Virus record (IMG/VR): IMGVR_UViG_3300045120_000167 | Coordinates: 1-45,313 of that record | Length of the DNA stretch: 45,313 nt | Direction: 5' to 3' (one strand) | Origin: a virus | Program-made: the position numbers and the translations under genes | In this document: one piece after another, positions 9,804-42,438 of the stretch | How the letters are laid out: every line of letters begins with the position of its first letter | Position numbering within the stretch: position 1 is the stretch's first letter | Notes under the pieces: generated by a model | Seen by the model: only the letters and a program-made list of their open reading frames with translations | The model's database searches: none | What the model was told of the DNA's origin: nothing

Positions 9804-9828
9804 AAAAAATGAGGGCGCGAACGCCCTC
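9804..9828 (-). terminator. Rho-independent terminator, UUCG tetraloop
   Basis: Read on the minus strand: GAGGGCG-TTCG-CGCCCTC, a perfect 7-bp stem with a stable tetraloop, then A and seven T. The stem starts inside the stop codon of the 22-aa peptide, so it ends the 10872-9827 transcript and separates it from the promoter at 9488-9517. Confidence 0.85.
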
Positions 9829-9895
9829 AAATCAGCCCGATTGCAATCGCCCAAACGGCGAAGGCGAGCGCGGCGAATAGCGCGACCTCGCTCAT
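9827..9895 (-). CDS. 22-aa membrane peptide coupled to the GP88-like gene
   Basis: ATG at 9895 overlaps the stop of the preceding gene (ATGA) and a GGAAG lies just upstream. It encodes MSEVALFAALAFAVWAIAIG plus L-I, essentially a single transmembrane helix. The stop codon is immediately followed by a strong terminator whose stem begins at the stop, which supports this as the true end of the operon. Function unknown. Confidence 0.5.
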   Translation of the reverse strand: MSEVALFAALAFAVWAIAIGLI

Positions 9896-11705: not shown

Positions 11706-12972
11706 GATTCCGTATCGGCCGCGGCCTCATTTTGCGCCGTTGCACGCCAGCCCCGCGCGGTTCATGTTTGTTGTTGCGCATCGGCGTGCGGGGAAGACGG
11801 TCGCCTTGGTCAACCACTTGATCAGGGCGGCCAATCTCAATCCCCGACAAACCCCTCCTCCGCGGTATGCGTATATTGGCCCCAGCTTTGACGCGGCGAA
11901 GGATCTGGTTTGGGGTTATCTCAAGCATTACACGGCCAACATTCCTGGCATTCGCACGATGGAGGGCGAGCTCAGTGTCACTCTTCCGAACCAGGCTCAG
12001 ATCCGGCTTTATGGCGGGGCTCTCGCGTATGAACGCATGCGGGGTATCTACCTCGATGGCGCTGTTTTGGACGAGTACCCTTTGCTTCACCCTAATGCTT
12101 ACACCTCGGTTATTCGCCCTTGCCTGGCTGATTACCGGGGTTTTGCGATTGTCAGCGGCACTGCTGCGGGCGAGGATCATTTCCACGCGCTGAAGCTGCG
12201 GGCCGAGGAGGATCCGAACTGGGCGATGTTTGACATACCGATCACCGCGACGGGGGACACGGCTCTCAATCCTGAGGAGGTTCAGGAGATGCGGCAGGAC
12301 ATGAGTCCGGACGAGTTTGCTCGAGAAATGTTGTGCAGTTTCGCGGCTCCGGTTGAAGGCGCTTACTACCAGGAGGCGATTAACAGCCTCCAGACCCAGA
12401 ATCGGGTGACCAAAGTCTCTCCGGACTTGAACACGGGGGTTCTGACCAGCTGGGACCTTGGGATGCGGCATCTTCAGGTGATTTGGTTGTTTCAGATATG
12501 CGGCCGGGAGCTGCATTGGATCGATTACATTGAGGGTCGTGGCAAATCTCTGAGCCATTACGCCGAGCTTCTCGCTCTCAAGGCGAAGGCGGGCGGATTT
12601 CAGTACCGGGCGCATCTTTTGCCGCATGACGTCGAGGTGAGGGAGCTGAGCACGGGTCATTCTCGGCGGCATGAGTTGGTCGGCCTTCTGAAGGAGCCTG
12701 TGATTACGGTTCCGAATCACAGCACGGACGACGGGATCACGGCCACCAGAGGCTCTTTGGGCATCAGTTGGTTTGACGAGGAGAGCACGCGGAAGGGGTT
12801 AGCGCGTCTTCGCTCGTATCGCCGCGGCAAATCGGGGATAGCGGTTGCGGACGAGGCGGAGGATGCGGCGGATGCGTTTCGGACTGGGTGTGTTGGAATC
12901 CCCTTGATCAGCGGCGGGTTTAGCGCCAGACATGGGGTCCGGCTGCGTCGGAGGCTGAGAAGCATTATCTGA
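11641..12972 (+). CDS. terL: Terminase large subunit
   Basis: A 443-aa packaging motor. Walker A AHRRAGKT is at residues 46-53, Walker B AVLDE at 141-145 with the catalytic acidic pair, and the coupling region VSGTAAGEDHF at about 171. The nuclease domain begins with SWDLGM (D272) and ends with DEAEDAADAFRTG near residue 410, the usual acidic helix. Its length is typical for podoviral TerL. The start lies inside the terS gene in another frame. The stop shares one base with a following 32-aa membrane ORF. Confidence 0.9.
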   Translation: MEATTIEPLSPPLETPLETRVKIPYRPRPHFAPLHASPARFMFVVAHRRAGKTVALVNHLIRAANLNPRQTPPPRYAYIGPSFDAAKDLVWGYLKHYTANIPGIRTMEGELSVTLPNQAQIRLYGGALAYERMRGIYLDGAVLDEYPLLHPNAYTSVIRPCLADYRGFAIVSGTAAGEDHFHALKLRAEEDPNWAMFDIPITATGDTALNPEEVQEMRQDMSPDEFAREMLCSFAAPVEGAYYQEAINSLQTQNRVTKVSPDLNTGVLTSWDLGMRHLQVIWLFQICGRELHWIDYIEGRGKSLSHYAELLALKAKAGGFQYRAHLLPHDVEVRELSTGHSRRHELVGLLKEPVITVPNHSTDDGITATRGSLGISWFDEESTRKGLARLRSYRRGKSGIAVADEAEDAADAFRTGCVGIPLISGGFSARHGVRLRRRLRSII

Positions 12973-13070
12973 TGGGCTACGGCTACATGAATCCGCCTTG
13001 GCATTATCTGGTTGGCGGACTTTTGTGTTTGGCGTTGGCTGCGTTGATTTATGGGGCGGGTCTGGTGTGA
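12972..13070 (+). CDS. 32-aa single-TM membrane peptide
   Basis: ATG at 12972 shares a base with the terminase stop (TGATG). It encodes MGYGYMNPPWHY followed by a hydrophobic helix (LVGGLLCLALAALIYGAGLV). Its stop overlaps the GTG of the next gene (GTGA). Tight coupling on both sides makes translation likely. Function unknown; it might be a superinfection-exclusion or holin-accessory peptide. Confidence 0.5.
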   Translation: MGYGYMNPPWHYLVGGLLCLALAALIYGAGLV

Positions 13071-13832: not shown

Positions 13833-14261
13833 ATGCCGCAGCTTTACTGGATAATTCCGCTTGAGGGCGGGCGCGTCGACAACAGCCTTCCTGGCGGCCC
13901 GCCCGATCACATCAGCAACCGGCCGATTTATCATCCGGGTCATCCGGAGCATGGTCTGCCGCCCAATCCGGCGCATATTGGCGGCGGGCCGATCTACCAT
14001 CCTGGGCATCCGAGTCACGGACTTCCCAGTCAGCCCGGCCATCCCGGCAATCGGCCGCCGGGGAGCGGCAATTATCCGAGCGGACAGCCGGTTCCTCCCG
14101 ACGCGATTGATCCGCCCTTGCCGGATGATTTGCCTGAGCCTTACGCCGACAAGGTGATTGTTGCGGTCAAGCGTCCCGGCGTGACGGAGTGGCGTGTGAC
14201 GGCGTATGACGTGGATTCTGGCATCGACAACGCGTTGCCGGAGGCTCCCGAGCCAAAATGA
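13833..14261 (+). CDS. HPGHP-repeat proline-rich protein
   Basis: A 142-aa protein. ATG 13833 is chosen because GAGGAAG lies 3-4 nt upstream, over GTG 13821. The N-terminus PQLYWIIPLEGGRVDNSLPG is followed by two degenerate repeats of about 22 residues, RPIYHPGHPEHGLPPNP and GPIYHPGHPSHGLPSQP, then a P-rich linker and a small C-terminal domain DKVIVAVKRPGVTEWRVTAY. Proteins with this HPGHPxHGLP repeat occur in phages of rhizobia, function unknown. Histidine-rich repeats could bind metal or mediate assembly. Confidence 0.65.
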   Translation: MPQLYWIIPLEGGRVDNSLPGGPPDHISNRPIYHPGHPEHGLPPNPAHIGGGPIYHPGHPSHGLPSQPGHPGNRPPGSGNYPSGQPVPPDAIDPPLPDDLPEPYADKVIVAVKRPGVTEWRVTAYDVDSGIDNALPEAPEPK

Positions 14262-14938
14262 TGAAGCCGCTCGCCATCGATCTTTTCTGCGGTCTTGGCG
14301 GGTGGACGGATGGCTTGCTTGCCGAGGGCTACGATGTCGTTGGGTTTGACATCGAGCGTCATGTCTACGGCGAGCACGCTTATCCGGCGCAATTGGTGTT
14401 GCAGGATGTTACGACGTTGGATGGCGCGCAGTTCAGGGACGCGGCGCTGATCGTCGCCAGTCCTCCCTGTCAGGCGTACAGTTATCGGGCGATGCCATGG
14501 AGTCGGGCGAAGGCGTTGCCGCCTCCTGATAATACGCTGTTCAATGTTTGTTTTCGCATTCAGCGTGAGGCGAGCGAGGCTGCGGGGAGGCGGATTCCGC
14601 TGGTGGTCGAGAACGTGCGCGGAGCGCAGAAGTGGGTTGGGCGGGCGCGGTGGAATTTCGGCAGCTTTTACCTTTGGGGCGATGTGCCGGCGCTGATGCC
14701 GACGAGGTTTGAGAGGGAGGCCGTTAAGGTTGAGTTTCCCAATGAGAAATATCGTTTCATCCACATGAAGGGGGTGAAGCAGGGCGGCGACTGGTTCGCG
14801 GAGGCTCGCAAGGGTGGCGTTGGTGGAACGTCGGCGAGTTTTGGCTCGAAGTCGCCTGCGCGCAAGATGGCTGCGGCGATGATCGCCAAGATCCCGTTGC
14901 CGCTCAGTCGGCATATCGCGGCGGTGTATCGGCCGTGA
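14258..14938 (+). CDS. DNA cytosine-C5 methyltransferase, compact
   Basis: 226 aa with the C5-MTase motifs in order: motif I DLFCGLGGW (residues 8-16), motif IV ASPPCQAYS (68-76, catalytic C72), motif VI VVENV (117-121), and a final motif X-like SRHIAAVYRP. It is shorter than the roughly 300-plus aa of host enzymes because the target-recognition region is reduced. It methylates cytosine in DNA, probably to protect phage DNA from host restriction. ATG 14258 overlaps the previous stop. It has an unusual location inside the late operon. Confidence 0.85.
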   Translation: MMKPLAIDLFCGLGGWTDGLLAEGYDVVGFDIERHVYGEHAYPAQLVLQDVTTLDGAQFRDAALIVASPPCQAYSYRAMPWSRAKALPPPDNTLFNVCFRIQREASEAAGRRIPLVVENVRGAQKWVGRARWNFGSFYLWGDVPALMPTRFEREAVKVEFPNEKYRFIHMKGVKQGGDWFAEARKGGVGGTSASFGSKSPARKMAAAMIAKIPLPLSRHIAAVYRP

Positions 14939-15411
14939 GCGAACGTCTACCCCCGTCTCAGTTGTATCTGTCCAGGGCGGGGGTGGATGTTCTGTCGGAT
15001 CGCGAGGGGTGTAAGCTGACCGCGTATCTCGACACCACGGGCGTACTGACCATTGGCATTGGGCATACGAGCGCCGCGGGGCCGCCCACGGTTTATCAGG
15101 GCATGACGATTACCCTTGAGGCGGCGCACACGATTTTCCGATCCGACAACAGGCGTTTTCGCGCCGAGGCGTTGCCGTTGATTGAGGTTCCTTGTCATCA
15201 GTATGAGTGGGATGCGCTGTGCAGTTTTCTGTTCAATCTTGGGACGACGCAGTTCGCCGGGAGCACCGCCCTTGAGCGGCTGAACGAAGAGAACTATGCT
15301 GGCGTGCCGGAAGCGATGTTGTGGTGGTCAAAGCCGCCCGAGATCATTCCGCGTCGCAAGGGTGAAGCGCATCAATTTGCGACTGGCGAGTATGTGGCGA
15401 GAATCCCATGA
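14935..15411 (+). CDS. Endolysin, GH24 lysozyme (T4/P21-type muramidase)
   Basis: A 158-aa protein from GTG 14935 (GTGA overlap). The catalytic arrangement E24-x8-D33-x5-T39 in REGCKLTAYLDTTGVLTIG matches the spacing E11/D20/T26 of T4 lysozyme. FNLGTTQFAGSTALERLN and the C-terminal RRKGEAHQFATGEY are the other GH24 signatures. It cleaves peptidoglycan between MurNAc and GlcNAc at the end of infection. There is no cleavable signal peptide, so it would need a holin; candidates lie 6-7 kb downstream rather than next to it. Confidence 0.85.
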   Translation: MSERLPPSQLYLSRAGVDVLSDREGCKLTAYLDTTGVLTIGIGHTSAAGPPTVYQGMTITLEAAHTIFRSDNRRFRAEALPLIEVPCHQYEWDALCSFLFNLGTTQFAGSTALERLNEENYAGVPEAMLWWSKPPEIIPRRKGEAHQFATGEYVARIP

Positions 15412-21538: not shown

Positions 21539-21718
21539 ATGACCCAGCTCGGCATCGAGACGGTCGGGGCGCTCAAAACGAGCCCGCTTCTGCTCGTCGT
21601 CGTCGTGTTGAACGCCGGGATGATTTTTGCGCTGTTGTGGGTCGCCAGCTCACAGCGGGATGAGCGGCAGATGCTAACGAGAATGCTGACTGAGAACTGC
21701 GGAAAGGCGGCCCCGTGA
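21539..21718 (+). CDS. 59-aa single-TM protein, holin or spanin candidate
   Basis: ATG 21539 to the TGA at 21718; MTQLGIETVGALKTSP, then a hydrophobic helix LLLVVVVLNAGMIFALLWVA and a charged C-terminus SSQRDERQMLTRMLTENC. One TM segment with a charged cytoplasmic-type tail fits small phage lysis proteins or a spanin-like subunit. Its stop shares a base with the start of the next membrane protein (TGATG), supporting a paired lysis function. GGCAG is the only weak SD. Confidence 0.5.
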   Translation: MTQLGIETVGALKTSPLLLVVVVLNAGMIFALLWVASSQRDERQMLTRMLTENCGKAAP

Positions 21719-21969
21719 TGTGTGGATTTGGAATCGGCACGATCTTTCAGGTCGCGATATTCGTCATTGTGGTGTTGGTCGTCTTGGCGCTGCTTCGCGC
21801 GCTCTTGGGCGGCTGGTTTGAGAACATCACTAGCGCGCCTTACTGGAACATTATTCAGATCGTCATCGGCGGCGTGGTTGCGATCCTGATCCTGCTGTTC
21901 CTGTGGCGTCTGGCGGAGTGCGCGGGTTTGTTTGGCCGAGTTGGGTTGGCGTCGTTGGGAATGGCTTAG
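21718..21969 (+). CDS. Two-TM membrane protein, holin candidate
   Basis: An 83-aa protein with two hydrophobic helices, VAIFVIVVLVVLALLRALLG and IIQIVIGGVVAILILLFLW, joined by a short polar loop (GGWFENITSAPYWN). The size and two-TM layout match class II holins, which would let the GH24 endolysin reach the peptidoglycan. ATG 21718 overlaps the previous stop (GTG 21715 is an alternative). It is distant from the endolysin gene, so the assignment rests on topology. Confidence 0.5.
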   Translation: MCGFGIGTIFQVAIFVIVVLVVLALLRALLGGWFENITSAPYWNIIQIVIGGVVAILILLFLWRLAECAGLFGRVGLASLGMA

Positions 21970-35365: not shown

Positions 35366-36585
35366 GCCTCGGAGACCTCGCCACCAACGCCTTATCCGGC
35401 AACCCGTCGGCGCAGATGGCCCAGGCGCTCGCTGGGCCGCAACCGGGCGCTCAGGGCGGGGGTGGGCAGCAGGGAGCGATGAACCCCTCTCCTGCGCCTG
35501 CTATGGCCCAGCCACAGGCTACCCAGAGCCCGCCCGACCTCGCCAAGCTCTACATGCAGCTTTACAACCAGCAGCGCGGGGCGGCGATGTTCGACCAGGG
35601 GGTGGCCGGGCTGCAGGCGGCGACGGCTCCGCCTGGGCAGCAGGCGGCGTGGCTCGCGCATGGGAACCAGGGCGGCCGGCAGGATCCTGGCCAGATGCTG
35701 CAGAATCTGATGCAGATGCAGTACATGCAGAAGTTGAACGCAATGCCGCCGCCTGGAGGTCAGTCGGGTCAAGGAGGCTGGGATCCTTCGACCTGGGCTG
35801 CATTACCGCCGGATGCAAAACTGAAAGTCATTGAGGCTCAAGCTCAAAGCGGCGTTCAGATCGCGCAGCAAGGCGCTGAAGCCAAGCAGAAGGAATTGAT
35901 TGAGGCGCAGGAGAAAGCGCCGGCTGCGTTGCAGCAAATGAGTGATATGGATTCGGTCGCCAATCAGCTTAAGGGGCCGCTGAACCCGGCGCTGACGAGT
36001 CTCATCTCAAGTCCGTCGGCAAGAATCGCGGCCGAGAAGCTTTTGGAGACGGATCCAGCGAAAGAACCATGGGATTCAACGAAGAATCTTGTTTATCAAA
36101 ATATGCTGTCGTCGGATCAATTGGCGGCGGTAAACCAGCTCAAGAAGCTCGACGCCCAGATTTATGGCGACGCCTTCCAGTCGACGGGTTCGCGGCGCAC
36201 GCAGGTGGAAGTCGCCAACTTGAAGAACGGCATTAGCACGTTGATGAACTTTAATCAGTCTCCTGAAGCTTACATGAATCAATTCAACGACTTCCATAAG
36301 CAATTACGCAAGACGATGGCGAACACCTACGGCGCGGCGGGACGAGTCGACGAAATCCCAGATGCTATGAAATGGGATATGACCGATCCAAAAAACCCCA
36401 AGCCAATGGTCGATACCGCCTATCTGCCCAACGGCGACAAGTATGGCGGCAAGGGCGGTCAGTGGGCGAGTCAGCCGCCGCCGACGCAGATCAACACGCC
36501 GGCTGACTTCAGCGCCGCTTATTCCAAGCTTTCATCGGGTGCGACCTACACTGCGCCGGATGGGACGCAGCGAAGGAAGCAGTGA
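35362..36585 (+). CDS. Internal virion/ejection protein with helical core
   Basis: A 407-aa protein from ATG 35362 (ATGA overlap). The N-terminal 140 residues are Gln/Pro/Gly-rich; residues about 145-330 are helical (KLKVIEAQAQSGVQIAQQGA; SSDQLAAVNQLKKLDAQIYG; MNQFNDFHKQLRKTMANTYG). The C-terminus has a small conserved stretch (YLPNGDKYGGKGGQWASQPP). Its context between two ejection-type genes gives the role. No family recognised. Confidence 0.65.
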   Translation: MSLGDLATNALSGNPSAQMAQALAGPQPGAQGGGGQQGAMNPSPAPAMAQPQATQSPPDLAKLYMQLYNQQRGAAMFDQGVAGLQAATAPPGQQAAWLAHGNQGGRQDPGQMLQNLMQMQYMQKLNAMPPPGGQSGQGGWDPSTWAALPPDAKLKVIEAQAQSGVQIAQQGAEAKQKELIEAQEKAPAALQQMSDMDSVANQLKGPLNPALTSLISSPSARIAAEKLLETDPAKEPWDSTKNLVYQNMLSSDQLAAVNQLKKLDAQIYGDAFQSTGSRRTQVEVANLKNGISTLMNFNQSPEAYMNQFNDFHKQLRKTMANTYGAAGRVDEIPDAMKWDMTDPKNPKPMVDTAYLPNGDKYGGKGGQWASQPPPTQINTPADFSAAYSKLSSGATYTAPDGTQRRKQ

Positions 36586-37946
36586 TGGCTGGGTGGGAGA
36601 GCGATCCCGTTGTCGGCGGTCCAGCCCCCGCAGCGGGCGGCGGCGGATGGCAAGGCGATCCTGTGGTTGGAGGCGACGCTGCGGCGACAGCACAACAGCG
36701 TCCCGGTCCGCCGCAGTCAATGCTGCACGACATCAGCGAGACAGCCGCCAACGCCTTTACGCTGGGCGCGGGCGACTGGTTATCGTCTAAGCTACCCGGA
36801 GCTCCTTCGCTCTCCCAAATCCAAGGCGAGACTGAAGCGTCGCGCGAGAGAGTGCCGTGGTACGTTCGCACGCCGATCGAGGTTGCGGCCTATGGAGCCG
36901 GTCCTGGAAAGGCGTTGGGGGCTCTCGCTGGTGGAAGCGTGCTTGGCGAGGGCGCTCTCGCGGGCGGATTGAGCGGAGGCTTTTCAAGCGACTTTGATCC
37001 GATGCGAACGGCGGGCAACGCCACGGTCGGGGCGGGGCTGGGAGCTCTTTCCGGCCTGATCCCCAAAGGCGTTAACGCGGGTCTTACAAAGGCGCTCGGC
37101 AAAGAGGGGACAGTCGACCCCGCCGCGGCGATCGCCTCGACGGCGAAAGACACCGCCGACGCCTACGCGGCCCTCCACCAGAAGGAGGTCAGTCCGTTCA
37201 GCGTTAATACGGCTCTTATCAAAGGCCGGTACAATCTCTCACCCAGCGAAGAGACCGGCCTGTCCGGCGGATTCAAGAGTCAGTTCAACGATATCAACAA
37301 GGCGAACGATAGCCTCACCTTGTCCGGCGGTAAGCCGACTGCGGGCGACGTCGACAGCTGGCAGCGTCAGATACAGGATGCGGCGGTTTCGTCCACCGAC
37401 AAGATCGCGGCCGGGAAGATCAGAGACAACCTAACCGACGTGCTCAAGCAACACGATGCATATGGGCTGCAACAGGACGCCAAGGCGGCCTATCAAAAAT
37501 CCAAGATGGCTGAGAACTTGGCGGAGTGGCAGCGGAAAGTCTCCGCCGGGGGTTCGGCTGGGCAAGCGCCGTTCACAGAGGCGGAGAATTGGTATCAGAA
37601 CGATCCGGCCAAATACGAAACGTTGGTGAAACTGGCTAATCAGCCAGATCAAAGCAGGGCGACTTGGGCGCTCGGCCATCTCGGCGCTCATACGCTTGGC
37701 ATGGGCGGTTATGCGCTCGGCGGAGTTCCTGGGTCATTGGGTGGTGAGGCGTTAGGCTATCTTTGGCTTAAGCCACAGATTGCTAAATTGATGAAGAGCG
37801 TTGACGCTCGCGCCAAGCTGCGAGGTTATCAGCAAGCCTATCCTCAATTCACCGGGGTGCAGCCGAAAGGCGCTGTGCAAGCCCCGCAACTCCCGCCGCA
37901 GGCGGGAGATCTGCTTAAGAACCTGATGCTTGGCGGCGCTTATTAA
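36585..37946 (+). CDS. Internal virion/ejection protein
   Basis: A 453-aa protein from ATG 36585. The first 35 residues repeat W-x-x-DPVVGG (WESDPVVGGPAP, WQGDPVVGGDAA), a repeat frequent at the N-terminus of podoviral ejection proteins. Residues 105-155 and 380-410 are Gly/Ala-rich amphipathic helices (LGALAGGSVLGEGALAGGLS; LGMGGYALGGVPGSLGGEAL) able to enter a membrane, with a coiled middle (YGLQQDAKAAYQKSKMAENL). It is the last rightward gene; its TAA overlaps the stop of a minus-strand peptide. Confidence 0.65.
   Translation: MAGWESDPVVGGPAPAAGGGGWQGDPVVGGDAAATAQQRPGPPQSMLHDISETAANAFTLGAGDWLSSKLPGAPSLSQIQGETEASRERVPWYVRTPIEVAAYGAGPGKALGALAGGSVLGEGALAGGLSGGFSSDFDPMRTAGNATVGAGLGALSGLIPKGVNAGLTKALGKEGTVDPAAAIASTAKDTADAYAALHQKEVSPFSVNTALIKGRYNLSPSEETGLSGGFKSQFNDINKANDSLTLSGGKPTAGDVDSWQRQIQDAAVSSTDKIAAGKIRDNLTDVLKQHDAYGLQQDAKAAYQKSKMAENLAEWQRKVSAGGSAGQAPFTEAENWYQNDPAKYETLVKLANQPDQSRATWALGHLGAHTLGMGGYALGGVPGSLGGEALGYLWLKPQIAKLMKSVDARAKLRGYQQAYPQFTGVQPKGAVQAPQLPPQAGDLLKNLMLGGAY
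37890..37908 (+). other. Stem-loop near end of the late operon
   Basis: CTCCCGCC-GCA-GGCGGGAG, an 8-bp perfect stem in the last codons of the final late gene, followed by ATCTGCTTAAG. No T-run, so it is at best a weak terminator, but it is the only strong stem before the convergent junction. Confidence 0.4.
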
Positions 37947-38017
37947 CTGCGCGGGGGTGGGTCGATCAGGAGCCCAACGACCACATAGATAAGCATAACA
38001 ATGAAAAACATTTCCAT
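37943..38017 (-). CDS. 24-aa membrane peptide, last leftward gene
   Basis: ATG 38017 with AAGGAG 8 nt upstream; the peptide MEMFFIVMLIYVVVGLLIDP plus PPRS is one TM helix and a proline tail. Its stop TTA (37943-37945) interlocks with the TAA of the rightward operon. The strong SD supports translation. Function unknown; it belongs to the microprotein cluster up to 39371. Confidence 0.5.
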   Translation of the reverse strand: MEMFFIVMLIYVVVGLLIDPPPRS

Positions 38018-38034
38018 TTAAGCGGCTCCTTGGC

Positions 38035-38175
38035 TTAGTCGTCGATAAAAAATAGCCGCCCCGTGCCAACGATCACGAGAATCGAGCCAGCTAAGAACGC
38101 GCCCCAGTTGAGCAGGAGGGTATCGCTCGTCGCCAAGCTGACGGCGAGGAGGATGATGCCGATCCCGATGGTCAC
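38035..38175 (-). CDS. 46-aa two-TM membrane protein
   Basis: GTG 38175 overlaps the stop of the preceding gene (GTGA), with SD AAGGAC 5 nt upstream. An in-frame ATG at 38202 is the alternative. It has two hydrophobic stretches, IGIGIILLAVSLATSDTLLL and WGAFLAGSILVIVGTG, ending RLFFIDD. Function unknown; small phage membrane protein, possibly a holin-like or exclusion factor. Confidence 0.55.
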   Translation of the reverse strand: MTIGIGIILLAVSLATSDTLLLNWGAFLAGSILVIVGTGRLFFIDD

Positions 38176-38339
38176 GGCTTGTCCTTGAGAGCGGACAGCC
38201 ATTTCTCGGCGGCCAATTCGATCAGATCCCACTCCTCGGCGCTCCTATCGTCCCTATCGGCCGAAAGAGCTTCCTCCAATTCAGAGGGATCAAGCGGTTC
38301 GGAGATGATTTGCGCATCCCGGTCGTCATGTTCGCTCAT
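38172..38339 (-). CDS. 55-aa acidic helical protein
   Basis: ATG 38339 with SD GGGAG. The protein is acidic (MSEHDDRDAQIISEPLDPSE, LEEALSADRDDRSAEEWDLI) and ends ELAAEKWLSALKDKP. Its stop is coupled to the next membrane ORF. The acidic character could mimic DNA or bind a host protein, but nothing identifies a target. Confidence 0.55.
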   Translation of the reverse strand: MSEHDDRDAQIISEPLDPSELEEALSADRDDRSAEEWDLIELAAEKWLSALKDKP

Positions 38340-38350
38340 CCCCCGCTCCC

Positions 38351-38761
38351 TTACGGTCGCCCTGCGGCGGCGAGAGCGGCGCGGGCCTGTTTGATTACGG
38401 CCTTATATTCACTCAAATGCGACAAGGTTTCAGCCTCAGACACGCTGACGAAGTTTTCGTTCAGGGCAACGCTTTCCTCCAGCGCCGCCACAAGCTCGGC
38501 GTTGTCTTCCGCGATGTCTTCGTTGACCGTCTCGGCTAATGATCTTCGAGCAGAATGGGACACTGCTTCGTGCCGCGCTTCCTCCAGCGCCGCCACAAGC
38601 TCAGCGTTCTGGGAGCGGAGGGCGGCGAGTGTCTCTTTTTCATGCTCGGCGCAGACCTCGACAATCTGATAGATCAGCCGTTCAGTTGCCTGTGCAACGA
38701 TGCTGCCATCCGCAACCTTTTGAGCGAAGCGAACGACTTCTGGCGAACGCTCCCTGATCAT
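38351..38761 (-). CDS. Coiled-coil protein with internal duplication
   Basis: 136 aa from ATG 38761 (SD AGGGAG). RFAQKVADGSIVAQATERLI is followed by LAALRSQNAELVAALEEARH and IAEDNAELVAALEESVALNE, so NAELVAALEE occurs twice; the DNA repeat is 29/30 identical (38474-38503 and 38579-38608). It ends QARAALAAAGRP, matching the C-terminal RAALAAAG of the adjacent upstream gene. Function unknown. Confidence 0.6.
   Translation of the reverse strand: MIRERSPEVVRFAQKVADGSIVAQATERLIYQIVEVCAEHEKETLAALRSQNAELVAALEEARHEAVSHSARRSLAETVNEDIAEDNAELVAALEESVALNENFVSVSEAETLSHLSEYKAVIKQARAALAAAGRP
38359..38385. repeat. 27-nt direct repeat, copy A
   Basis: GCCCTGCGGCGGCGAGAGCG followed by GCGCGGG; copy B at 38781-38807 differs at one base. 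Each copy is the 3' end (encoding RAALAAAG) of two consecutive leftward genes. Confidence 0.7.
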
Positions 38762-39120
38762 TTCCCACTCCCTTGCGTATGCCCTGCGGCGGCGAGGGCG
38801 GCGCGGGCTTCGCAGCCTTGGCAATCGGAGAAGATGTGGTCGGCTTCGTCGCACCAACCCTCACACATATCCGTCTTAAATTTCTTCAGCGCCTCCTCCA
38901 GCTTCGCCACGCGGGTGCGCAGAGCGTCATGCTCGTCCATGGGGTGGGAAGCCAGCCAGTCCTCGATGTTGTCGCGCAGCGCGGTCTGCGACGGCGGGAT
39001 ATGGTTCTGCGCTAAAAGCAGAAGCTCGCGAACCGAGTACCCGCGAAGACGGCGGCTCTCTCGTTCCGCCGCTGTATCTGGAATATCCAGGTCAATTGTC
39101 GGCAATGATTTATTGCTCAT
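38758..39120 (-). CDS. Hypothetical helical protein with cysteine-rich C-terminus
   Basis: 120 aa from ATG 39120 (the frame extends to 39144 without support). MSNKSLPTIDLDIPDTAAER and YSVRELLLLAQNHIPPSQTA are followed by a helix ALRTRVAKLEEALKKFKTDM and a Cys cluster MCEGWCDEADHIFSDCQGCE (C-x3-C-x9-C-x2-C) that could bind a metal. Its last residues RAALAAAG resemble those of the next gene. No family recognised. Confidence 0.6.
   Translation of the reverse strand: MSNKSLPTIDLDIPDTAAERESRRLRGYSVRELLLLAQNHIPPSQTALRDNIEDWLASHPMDEHDALRTRVAKLEEALKKFKTDMCEGWCDEADHIFSDCQGCEARAALAAAGHTQGSGK
38781..38807. repeat. 27-nt direct repeat, copy B
   Basis: Differs from 38359-38385 by a single A/G change. 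The similar positions in two adjacent genes suggest a duplicated 3' module or recombination between them. Confidence 0.7.
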
Positions 39121-39121
39121 C

Positions 39122-39271
39122 TCAGTCGCTCGGTTCTTCTTCAAGGTCCCACTTGGTGAACAACATCAGGACGCCCAAAAAGACCAAAAACACAATGAAC
39201 GCGCCGCCGGCGATGACTTCCAAATTGTAGACCATCAGGTCCGCGAATAACTGCGTTTTCCCGTCAACCAT
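39122..39271 (-). CDS. 49-aa single-TM membrane protein
   Basis: ATG 39271 with a very strong SD (GGAGGTGAGGGG). MVDGKTQLFADLMVYNLEVI is followed by a TM segment AGGAFIVFLVFLGVLMLF and an acidic cytoplasmic tail TKWDLEEEPSD. Its stop is next to the start at 39120. Function unknown. Confidence 0.6.
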   Translation of the reverse strand: MVDGKTQLFADLMVYNLEVIAGGAFIVFLVFLGVLMLFTKWDLEEEPSD

Positions 39272-39275
39272 CCCC

Positions 39276-39371
39276 TCACCTCCAAAGATAAATCAAACCC
39301 GTCACGACCATGGCGGACGCTAGCCACGCCACGACGAAATAGAGAAGAACCCAACTGCCTTCGTAGGACAT
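39276..39371 (-). CDS. 31-aa single-TM membrane peptide
   Basis: ATG 39371; MSYEGSWVLLYFVVAWLASA then MVVTGLIYLWR. It is hydrophobic along its length, with an aromatic start and a basic end, a typical TM peptide. It lies 4 nt before the next ORF, whose SD overlaps its stop codon region. The SD is weak, so the start is less certain. Confidence 0.45.
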   Translation of the reverse strand: MSYEGSWVLLYFVVAWLASAMVVTGLIYLWR

Positions 39372-39434
39372 GCCCGTTTAGCACCCTGTTAACGTCCACC
39401 TGCTTAACGGAGCCGAAAACTCACGGACGATCAA

Positions 39435-39454
39435 AGCGGCGGGGGACCACCGCT
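39435..39454 (-). terminator. Stem-loop at the stop of the first PEP-CTERM gene
   Basis: On the minus strand AGCGGTGG-TCCC-CCGCCGCT, an 8-bp stem (one G-T pair) that begins within the stop codon, followed by TTGATCG. Likely a weak rho-independent terminator or mRNA 3' end. The rest of the 39372-39453 gap holds no clear gene. Confidence 0.55.
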
Positions 39455-40155
39455 CAGATTGCGAGACGCGCGCCGCGCTTCTTCCAGCCGACGAGGCCGA
39501 GCAAGCCAAAGCCTGCAATGAGCATTGCCCAGGTCGAGGGCTCCGGCACGCCGATCACCGGGTTGATGACCGCGCCGCCGGTGATCAAGCCAGCATTGGT
39601 GAAGCTGGTATCCACGCCGGTTCCCGACAAAGGCGCGATATAGGTGCCCTCGGCAAACGAGCCGATCACCTTGATGAAGTCCTTGCCGCTGAAGTTGACG
39701 TTCACCACCGCCTCATAGGCGTCGTAGGCCGTCGGCACGCTGGACAGCGTGGTGTCGGCGGTGATGCCCGCGCTGAAGTTGACGAAATTCATGGAGTTAT
39801 TGCACGCGGTGCAGCCGACGAAGGTGTAGAAATCCTTGGTCGGAGAGCCGGTGAAATCGCCAAGCGCGGTCAGCTCAACCGGCCCGGTGAACGTCTTCAC
39901 CGTCACTCCGCCGTAGAGGATGCTGGTAATCGTCGGCGCGACCTCGCCCTCTGGCACTGCGAAGAAAATGTCGAGCGGCCCTGCCTCGGCCTTGTTGGGG
40001 TTGTCGGCAATGTAGAACGTAGTGTTGCTGGGGATCGCGTTTGGATCGTTGCCGGGGCCGCCATCGCTGGTCGCGCCGACATGGTAGGCGGTGGTGTCGG
40101 CGTAAGCAGGCATGGCGAGCGCACATAACGCCGTGGCGAGAAGTAACTTTTTCAC
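39454..40155 (-). CDS. PEP-CTERM exported protein 1
   Basis: A 233-aa protein from GTG 40155 (SD AAGGA 8 nt upstream). A signal peptide (KKLLLATALCALAMPAYA|DT) is followed by a beta-rich domain of about 180 aa with a CTACNNS loop, and the C-terminus VPEPSTWAMLIAGFGLLGLV then GWKKRG: PEP motif, TM helix and basic cluster, the complete PEP-CTERM/exosortase sorting signal. Such proteins are anchored or secreted with exopolysaccharide in biofilm-forming bacteria. In a phage it is unexpected; no exosortase gene is in this window, so a host exosortase would be needed. Confidence 0.85.
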   Translation of the reverse strand: MKKLLLATALCALAMPAYADTTAYHVGATSDGGPGNDPNAIPSNTTFYIADNPNKAEAGPLDIFFAVPEGEVAPTITSILYGGVTVKTFTGPVELTALGDFTGSPTKDFYTFVGCTACNNSMNFVNFSAGITADTTLSSVPTAYDAYEAVVNVNFSGKDFIKVIGSFAEGTYIAPLSGTGVDTSFTNAGLITGGAVINPVIGVPEPSTWAMLIAGFGLLGLVGWKKRGARLAI

Positions 40156-40244: not shown

Positions 40245-40952
40245 TCAGACAGCGAAACGCGGTGTCCTACGCTTACGCAACCCCAGCGCGGCCAACAGGG
40301 CGAAGCCTCCTCCCATCATCACCCAGGTGGACGGCTCGGGAACGGCATTGGTCGCGTCCATAGAAATCGACTGGACCCCGACGAACGCTCCCGGCTGCAG
40401 GGTGAGCTGCAACGACTCGGCCATGCCGTAAGGGCCAAGCGCCGGGAAGAACACGTTGGCCGAGTTGCTGGAGAACGAGAACGGACCTGTAAGCAGGCCG
40501 CTGTCGAATGTTCCGCCGATCTGGGTTCCGACAACCGGGCCGGTGTTCGTCCCGTTCAACGAGTTGGCGGCATCCACGAAAAAAGTGCCGGTCAACTCAG
40601 CCTGCCCCGTGGCGATCAGCACGGTCGCGGAGGCGTTGAACAGATTGCTGGGACCGCCGTAACCGTTCGCCCCCGCGATGATGTCCAATGTCTGGACGGT
40701 CCCGGTGGTGTTGGAAATAAACAGGTTGCTCTCGGTCAGGCTGTTGTTGGGCGAGGTCAGCCGCGTCGCGCCGCTGGTGGTGATGGTGATCCCGCTCAGG
40801 CTCGAGCCCGAAAGCACCGCCGTGTCGGTGCCGATCGCCGTCTCCGAGCCGCCCGGATTGCTCGAGTTCCATAGCGTTAACGCGGTGTTGGCCGCGGCCG
40901 CGGGCGTCGCGAGCGCCGCCGCAAGAGCCGTCGTCAGTAGAAGTCTTTTCAT
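40245..40952 (-). CDS. PEP-CTERM exported protein 2
   Basis: A 235-aa protein from ATG 40952 (SD AAGGG). Signal peptide KRLLLTTALAAALATPAAA|ANT, then a beta-rich Ser/Thr/Asn-rich domain (SSLSGITITTSGATRLTSPN; LIATGQAELTGTFFVDAANS), and the C-terminal VPEPSTWVMMGGGFALLAAL then GLRKRRTPRF. It is similar in size and plan to the next gene but not visibly homologous outside the termini. The frame extends upstream to 41192 but only by shadowing the helicase gene. Together they form a two-gene secreted cassette. Confidence 0.85.
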   Translation of the reverse strand: MKRLLLTTALAAALATPAAAANTALTLWNSSNPGGSETAIGTDTAVLSGSSLSGITITTSGATRLTSPNNSLTESNLFISNTTGTVQTLDIIAGANGYGGPSNLFNASATVLIATGQAELTGTFFVDAANSLNGTNTGPVVGTQIGGTFDSGLLTGPFSFSSNSANVFFPALGPYGMAESLQLTLQPGAFVGVQSISMDATNAVPEPSTWVMMGGGFALLAALGLRKRRTPRFAV

Positions 40953-40992
40953 GGTCCCACCCTTTGGTTGTGGCCGAGAGAGTCGGCTCCGC

Positions 40993-42438
40993 TCATTCCA
41001 CGGGCTCCGCCACCCTGAGATTCTTGAATACGCTACGGTAAAGGGCATCTTTCCGCTGCAGCGCCTTAACAATGCGCCGGTCGAGATCGGACCCGGACAA
41101 ATCAATATACAGCACGGATTCGCCAGTTTGTCCACGCCTATGTATGCGGTCCTCGATCTGGTCCCTTGTGTCGGCCGAATAGCTGTTTTCAAAAAAGATC
41201 ATGGTCCGGCACTTGTCGTCCGGCTCGGGGCCGCCAAGCAGGGTATGGCCATATTTGGCTGCGTCACATTGCAGGAGAATGACCCGGCAGGCCGGATCTT
41301 CGTTGAAACGGGCCTTCTGTTCGGAGACCTCGTCGGGCTTCATGCCGCCGCCGATCCAGGCGCAATCGTACAGGAAGACCTCGCCGGTCTCGGGGTCAAT
41401 TCGATCGATGAGATTGCTCCGTAGAAAAGGCAGCATGGCCCGGTGCCGATAAACGACGCAGACCTTGCCGGCGACCTCCTCGTGAAGAAGCTGGAGCAGG
41501 AGGTTGAGCCGAGGATTGGCCAACGGCTTGACGAGTTCGTGGGCCTCGCCAGACTCATCATAGATAAATCCACATTGGATCTGCGCCAATTTGGCGTATT
41601 TGGCGATCGCGACCTCGACCGTGATCACGCCTTGCTCGATCTCGAGTAGGAACTGGTGTTCCATTTGGTTGTACTGACGCCGCTGTTCGGCCGACATCTC
41701 GTAGTCGCGGATGGTGTAATCCTTGCGCGGCAGCGCCGGCAGCCAATCCTTCTTCTTCGCCTGGAACACCGCCGGCCCCATGATCTGGGCGAGCTCGTCG
41801 ACGTTCTTCGCCGCCAAGACCTCCTTATCCTGCCAGCCGCCCATGACGCAGTAACGACCGCGAAAGGAGTAGAAATTGGCGCCAGGCAGGAGGCCGATGG
41901 CTCGCAGCTGCCCCCACAAGTCATGCGGACCCTGAGTTTGAGGCCGGCCGGTCAGGAGCCGCGTATACAGGCACGTCGGGGCGAGGATCTGCATCGCCTT
42001 GGTCTGGAGGCTCTTCGGCCCCTTGATCTGGATGCTCTCGTCGATGGCCAGGTACGCCTTGCCGCGCGCCGCCCAGATGCATAGCGTTCGAAGCACGCCG
42101 GACATGCGGGCGGCGTCATAGTTGATGATCAGAACCGCCGGCCCCTTGGGGTGGTAACCGAGACTAAGGAAAGCGAGGGCGTCGGCCTTTTTTGCCGACT
42201 GCCAGATATGGACGTCGAACCGAAAGCTATGTTTCTCGATTTCGTCGAGCCACCCATTTTTGAACGTGTTCGGGCAAACGACGACCATTCGATCGACGAC
42301 GCCGGTCGACTGCAGGAACGAGAACTCGGTCAGGGCGATCAGCGTCTTGCCGAGTCCTTGCTCCAGAAAGAAACCGACGCCTTTCTTTCCGCGGGCGAAG
42401 TCCAGCGCGGCGATCTGGACCGGGTCGAGGGCGCTCAT
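40993..42438 (-). CDS. SNF2-family DEAD/H-box helicase
   Basis: A 481-aa protein from ATG 42438 (ATGA overlap). Motif I EQGLGKT is at residues 26-32, motif II is AIDESIQIKG (D133-E134-S, a DEAH variant), motif III is LLTGRPQTQGPHDLWGQLRA, and motif VI is DQIEDRIHRRGQTGESVLYI. It is compact, with no fused nuclease; phages often encode such SWI2/SNF2-like ATPases in their DNA-metabolism block. It moves along or remodels double-stranded DNA, probably in recombination or repair with the VRR-NUC-like nuclease at 44309. Confidence 0.85.
   Translation of the reverse strand: MSALDPVQIAALDFARGKKGVGFFLEQGLGKTLIALTEFSFLQSTGVVDRMVVVCPNTFKNGWLDEIEKHSFRFDVHIWQSAKKADALAFLSLGYHPKGPAVLIINYDAARMSGVLRTLCIWAARGKAYLAIDESIQIKGPKSLQTKAMQILAPTCLYTRLLTGRPQTQGPHDLWGQLRAIGLLPGANFYSFRGRYCVMGGWQDKEVLAAKNVDELAQIMGPAVFQAKKKDWLPALPRKDYTIRDYEMSAEQRRQYNQMEHQFLLEIEQGVITVEVAIAKYAKLAQIQCGFIYDESGEAHELVKPLANPRLNLLLQLLHEEVAGKVCVVYRHRAMLPFLRSNLIDRIDPETGEVFLYDCAWIGGGMKPDEVSEQKARFNEDPACRVILLQCDAAKYGHTLLGGPEPDDKCRTMIFFENSYSADTRDQIEDRIHRRGQTGESVLYIDLSGSDLDRRIVKALQRKDALYRSVFKNLRVAEPVE

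Follow-up and report, generated by a model that had tools for sequence, protein, structure and literature searches.

We found that the four tiny membrane ORFs (24, 46, 49 and 31 aa) of a viral record are real genes. Sequence comparison indicates that three of them, p31, p49 and p46, form a mobile accessory cassette together with two putatively secreted PEP-CTERM proteins in otherwise different soil phages. The fourth, p24, is not a member of the cassette and fills a hypervariable slot for tiny membrane genes at a convergent operon junction.

The window, by which we mean the whole 45,313-bp record, carries replication genes running leftward near both ends and late genes running rightward in its middle; a terminal repeat was not found. 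We studied the region where the leftward block ends, head-on to the last late gene (36582-37946). Reading leftward, an SNF2-type helicase gene (40993-42438) is followed by two PEP-CTERM genes and then by the small genes. A short inverted repeat (GCCGACTCTCTCGGC) lies at about 40955-41000, between the helicase stop and the first PEP-CTERM gene, and it also occurs in L102, L079 and L084 with a changed loop. The terminase-nearest isolate was Ochrobactrum phage vB_OspP_OH (53% identity), in which about 125 bp separate the end of the helicase gene from the convergent gene. Closer relatives, denoted here by L numbers, were found using p46 and p49 as seeds, and none was found with the neighbouring 454-aa ejection gene as seed. 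All of them are metagenome contigs, many out of a few sampling projects.

The two PEP-CTERM proteins, PEP1 (minus strand, 40245-40952, 235 aa) and PEP2 (minus strand, 39454-40155, 233 aa), scored 31.9 and 26.5 bits with PF07589 against a cut-off of 20.7, on the basis of a PEP motif, a hydrophobic helix and a basic end. PEP2, a PEPxxWA-CTERM protein, also exceeded the cut-off of NCBIfam NF035944, and PEP1 has seven phage homologues with 61-90% identity. The N-termini of both, judged by eye, show a basic-hydrophobic-AxA-like start. An AlphaFold2 model of PEP1 was too poor for a fold search (mean pLDDT 48.6).

Downstream of PEP2 the minus strand encodes p31 (39276-39371, one helix), p49 (39122-39271, one helix and an acidic tail), the soluble cargo gene p120 (38758-39120, with an SVRELLLLAQ motif), the coiled-coil cargo gene p137 (38351-38761, 136 aa), the acidic p55 (38172-38339, 55 aa), p46 (38035-38175, GTG start, two helices) and p24 (37943-38017, one helix). 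The initial annotation had placed four hydrophobic ORFs here, and all are present. It had credited most of them with good Shine-Dalgarno sites; these are strong for p49 (GGAGGTGA), p24 (AAGGAG) and p46 (AAGGA), and weak for p31. The stop-start coupling that it described was borne out, with the small genes forming one translationally coupled run: 4 bp lie between the p31 stop and the p49 start, p49 and p120 are joined by TGAGATG, p120 and p137 by an ATGA overlap and p55 and p46 by a GTGA overlap, and p46 and p24 are spaced by 17 bp.

To judge these ORFs against chance we counted those with a Shine-Dalgarno score of at least 5, an ATG or GTG start and a strong hydrophobic segment, thresholds that were our own choice and varied between analyses. 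The 1.55-kb slot contains three such ORFs, or four at a score of at least 4, whereas more than 99% of 2,000 dinucleotide shuffles contained none and the maximum was one. With the same criteria there were none on the opposite strand of the slot and one in the remainder of the window. Across 28 loci with a complete slot, a set that includes the window and some near-duplicates, we found 19 such ORFs, compared with a shuffle expectation of 0.08 and with one on the opposite strand. As had been claimed, none resembles a known family: p31, p49, p46 and p24 had no match at curated cut-offs in PHROGs or Pfam, nor did p49 and p46 in NCBIfam and PADLOC. The stacked arrangement of the ORFs, their good ribosome sites and their conserved order led us to set aside a reading of the peptides as type I toxins. 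Two further peptides of this kind had been listed elsewhere in the window, and both recur in L002, that at 9827-9895 with 91% identity (with weaker matches in L004, L006, L008, L009 and L043) and that at 12972-13070 with 96%. The latter gene overlaps the terL stop codon.

We also checked for frame breakage in relatives. The frames of p31, p49 and p46 are kept in L098, L100, L104/L105 and L107, and p24 has only one weak homologue. Between the window and L098, its closest homologue, p49 is 100% identical at the amino-acid level, with six codon differences that are all synonymous and no non-synonymous change. Across five sequences dN/dS was 0-0.46 for p49 and 0.22-0.61 for p31, and the comparison shows purifying selection on both. 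For p46 the ratio ranged from 0.10 to 0.96, which is not uniformly low and makes constraint less clear by this measure; its pattern largely persists at about 45-50% identity. A further 20-aa peptide, p20 (MAIYAVIGMALMVIWIAWVA in L098), lies between p49 and p46 in L098, L100, L104/L105 and L107. Its dN/dS was 0.12-0.13 for L098 versus L100 and L105 and 0.35 to 1.5 for other pairs; because these values are mixed, the case for its coding rests mainly on its kept position and sequence. The window has no p20 and carries p120 in its place. Stretches homologous to p120 were found in L100 and, by sequence, in L104/L105, with none in L098; p137 has a homologous stretch in L054 and weakly in L086, and p55 has no convincing homologue. 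All these are short proteins, for which statistics are weak.

The conserved genes p31, p49 and p46 reappear alongside PEP-CTERM genes in phage contigs of about 12-65 kb, where their genome position varies. In the window the cassette stands at the end of the replication operon. In L098 a block aligned to window positions 40936-39118 comes immediately after terL in the late operon; next come p46 and a gene aligned to window position 13833 onward. L099 is an independent contig with the same junction from p46 to the late gene. PEP1 and p46 lie between the recombination genes ERF and NinB in L102, and the cassette follows ERF and YqaJ genes in L100, a large DUF927 gene in L107 (64.9 kb; its convergent gene had no Pfam match) and stands in another operon in L104 and L105 (30.9 and 62 kb). 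In L108, PEP1 and PEP2 lie behind a different terminase and the contig stops at the joint. It is this recurrence at different positions from which we conclude that the cassette is mobile and accessory. L058 and L086 have little or nothing in the slot, which indicates that the small genes are dispensable.

PEP2 and p31 are connected by a 126-bp joint (minus strand, 39372-39497) consisting of the final PEP2 codons and the p31 leader. The window, L098, L100 and L105 share it without a difference, and L107 has one mismatch; it is almost unchanged among phages that differ in size, in type and in the genes flanking it. It may be a recombination joint or a regulatory leader. Rfam contains no match to the leader, and its fold is weak. 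A repeated promoter was also considered and rejected, a 42-bp stretch of the leader occurring once in the window.

The position of p24 follows a different pattern. It is the last gene before the convergent stop and lies outside the moving block. In relatives this position is taken by different tiny membrane peptides, in 15 of the 28 loci by strict criteria and in more if weaker ribosome sites are admitted. Likely homology of p24 itself was seen in L073 only (LIDPPPR). In L084 and L079 the p46 gene is followed at once by a tiny membrane peptide. We take p24 as a separate resident of this slot, possibly with a similar inner-membrane role.

Linkage between p46 and PEP-CTERM genes was reached from two independent seeds. 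Among 30 related or cassette-bearing viral records, 17 had PEP-CTERM matches. Eight of the 30 had p46, six of them together with a PEP-CTERM match; the contigs of the other two (L104 and L105) begin inside the cassette, and L105 shows the end of PEP2. The L099 contig starts at the p46 start, so that its upstream content is not visible. PEP-CTERM matches also occurred in 11 of the 22 records lacking p46, and PEP-CTERM proteins therefore do not need p46. With PEP1 as the seed, ten of 11 complete loci, the window counted, matched the p46 profile, as did the p46-seeded loci. L237 and L239 are among the matches though outside the sequences of the profile; in the one remaining locus, L238, the profile failed to match an 80-aa two-helix ORF. 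The remaining profile hits among 62,862 ORFs, bacterial loci included, were none better than E = 6.6, and p46 was not found in bacterial genomes. By sequence, then, p46 is a new two-helix family. The locus DNA, PEP1 and a p46 homologue had no match in 50,697 annotated phage records, and no paper describing phage PEP-CTERM genes was found by title or abstract in the open-access literature searched.

None of the 30 phage records encodes an exosortase, and the enzyme must therefore come from the host. Of ten candidate-host-type genomes whose PEP-CTERM tails are similar, nine have exosortase. A Bradyrhizobium-type host is suggested by PEP-CTERM similarity only, which is mostly confined to the tag.

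An envelope-modifying module comprising all four tiny genes had been proposed in the initial annotation. The idea holds up in part. Its envelope-modifying side is strengthened by the linkage of p31, p49 and p46 with putatively secreted PEP-CTERM proteins in otherwise different phages. The four genes are not one module, p24 occupying a separate slot. A cassette with proteins tagged for surface sorting suggests that these phages alter the envelope of the infected cell. We tentatively favour the reading that the locus is an envelope-modifying, probably superinfection-excluding mobile accessory cassette. It would be made up of the two secreted PEP-CTERM proteins, the joint and inner-membrane micro-proteins (p31, p49 and p46, and elsewhere p20). 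PEP1 and PEP2 would cross the inner membrane during infection and stay anchored via their C-terminal helix, and host exosortase would take them to the surface or to exopolysaccharide. The micro-proteins may be inner-membrane partners of PEP1 and PEP2 that help or time their sorting, may change the membrane directly, or may do both. An envelope modified in this way would be expected to keep competing phages out. Both superinfection exclusion and inhibition of host transport are possible functions. PADLOC-DB models (E <= 0.1) matched none of PEP1, PEP2, p49, p46 and three soluble proteins. The exclusion reading is weakened because most records have no integrase, whereas many well-known exclusion genes are prophage genes. 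A broader proposal, which we consider doubtful, is a portable phage surface-display system, in which several lineages would bring exosortase substrates with dedicated micro-membrane partners (the p46 family and p31/p49), commandeer the host exosortase and so give the infected cell a coated or reprogrammed surface.

The micro-proteins might instead be only helpers of the two PEP-CTERM proteins, such as chaperones or sorting and stability factors, with the surface change serving not exclusion but another purpose, such as virion release or the remodelling of exopolysaccharide or biofilm. The tight linkage of p46 with PEP1 would fit such a role, as would the association of PEP-CTERM systems with exopolysaccharide genes (Haft et al. 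2006, PMC1569441); however, half of the other records have PEP-CTERM genes without p46, and we regard this explanation as rather unlikely. Less likely again is that the micro-proteins inhibit a host inner-membrane protein (in transport, division or energy, or a protease) and that their linkage with the PEP-CTERM genes is a passenger association. Small prophage proteins that act at the inner membrane are known, such as DicB, which acts through ManYZ (PMC6832061), but gene order and linkage with the PEP-CTERM genes are kept here across different phages and positions.

A pinholin/antiholin function had also been put forward, and the lysis genes do not bear it out. In such a lysis module p46 or p49 would be the holin or pinholin and a neighbouring single-helix peptide the antiholin; size and helix number fit, and the peptide of the junction slot resembles holins in being common and highly variable. 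However, the endolysin of the window (14935-15411, Pfam Phage_lysozyme) starts with MSERLPPSQLYLSRAG and lacks a hydrophobic signal-anchor helix, so that it does not qualify as a SAR endolysin. In addition, one or two small membrane genes with two to three helices follow the major capsid gene in the late operon of the window and of four of the six relatives read through. These match no named family and are called holin-like by position and shape. The best holin candidate is the 83-aa two-helix gene at 21718-21969, which is 92% identical in the record of L012 and 73% identical in that of L090; other genes stand there elsewhere. Moreover, the small genes of the window sit in the replication operon, and most relatives lack p46. 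We therefore rejected pinholin/antiholin as the main reading, given the endolysin without an anchor helix and the better holin candidates elsewhere; such a role is unlikely, and the lysis module as a whole quite improbable. A Phage_lysozyme-type endolysin was seen in only three of the 30 records, and L098 has an unrelated 188-aa gene without a Pfam match at the endolysin position. Finally, chance hydrophobic reading frames without a product, which the small size of the ORFs and the weak or absent conservation of p24 and p55 would allow, are highly improbable and are already contradicted for p31, p49 and p46 by the shuffle controls, by the frame conservation of p49 and p31 with excess synonymous change and by the same gene order in other phages.

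Annotation readily misses tiny membrane ORFs of phages. The set in this cassette is conserved, mobile and linked to putatively secreted proteins with sorting tags, and it offers a concrete, testable handle on micro-protein function, with a hint that phages use the exosortase pathway.

Several known systems invite comparison with the favoured exclusion cassette. As in holins and pinholin/antiholin pairs, p46 has two helices in about 50 residues, but the cassette is not tied to an endolysin. Like moron-type accessory genes, the cassette is found in some close relatives, is absent from others and lies between modules. It may differ from morons in its promoter, as a simple scan gave no promoter-like site of its own, and its genes in the window are coupled within an operon. 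This consensus scan gave no sigma-70-like site, though promoters of another type may operate in this organism. Visual inspection picked out TTGACA-like hexamers upstream of PEP1 in L098 and L107, but they failed the scan, and terminator-like sites were no more frequent at the cassette than in shuffles. With superinfection exclusion proteins such as P22 SieA (PMC10883804) and HK97 gp15 (as cited in PMC6832061), the cassette shares dispensable phage membrane proteins with an expected action at the inner membrane. It differs in having no sequence match to them and in coupling several micro-proteins to secreted tagged proteins, and exclusion is here a putative function. The PEP-CTERM/EpsH (exosortase) sorting system described by Haft et al. 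(PMC1569441) is bacterial and includes the exosortase, whereas here the genes are those of phages without an exosortase and are followed by membrane micro-proteins with no counterpart found; what PEP1 and PEP2 have in common with it is the C-terminal tag, together with an N-terminal stretch that looks signal-like by eye.
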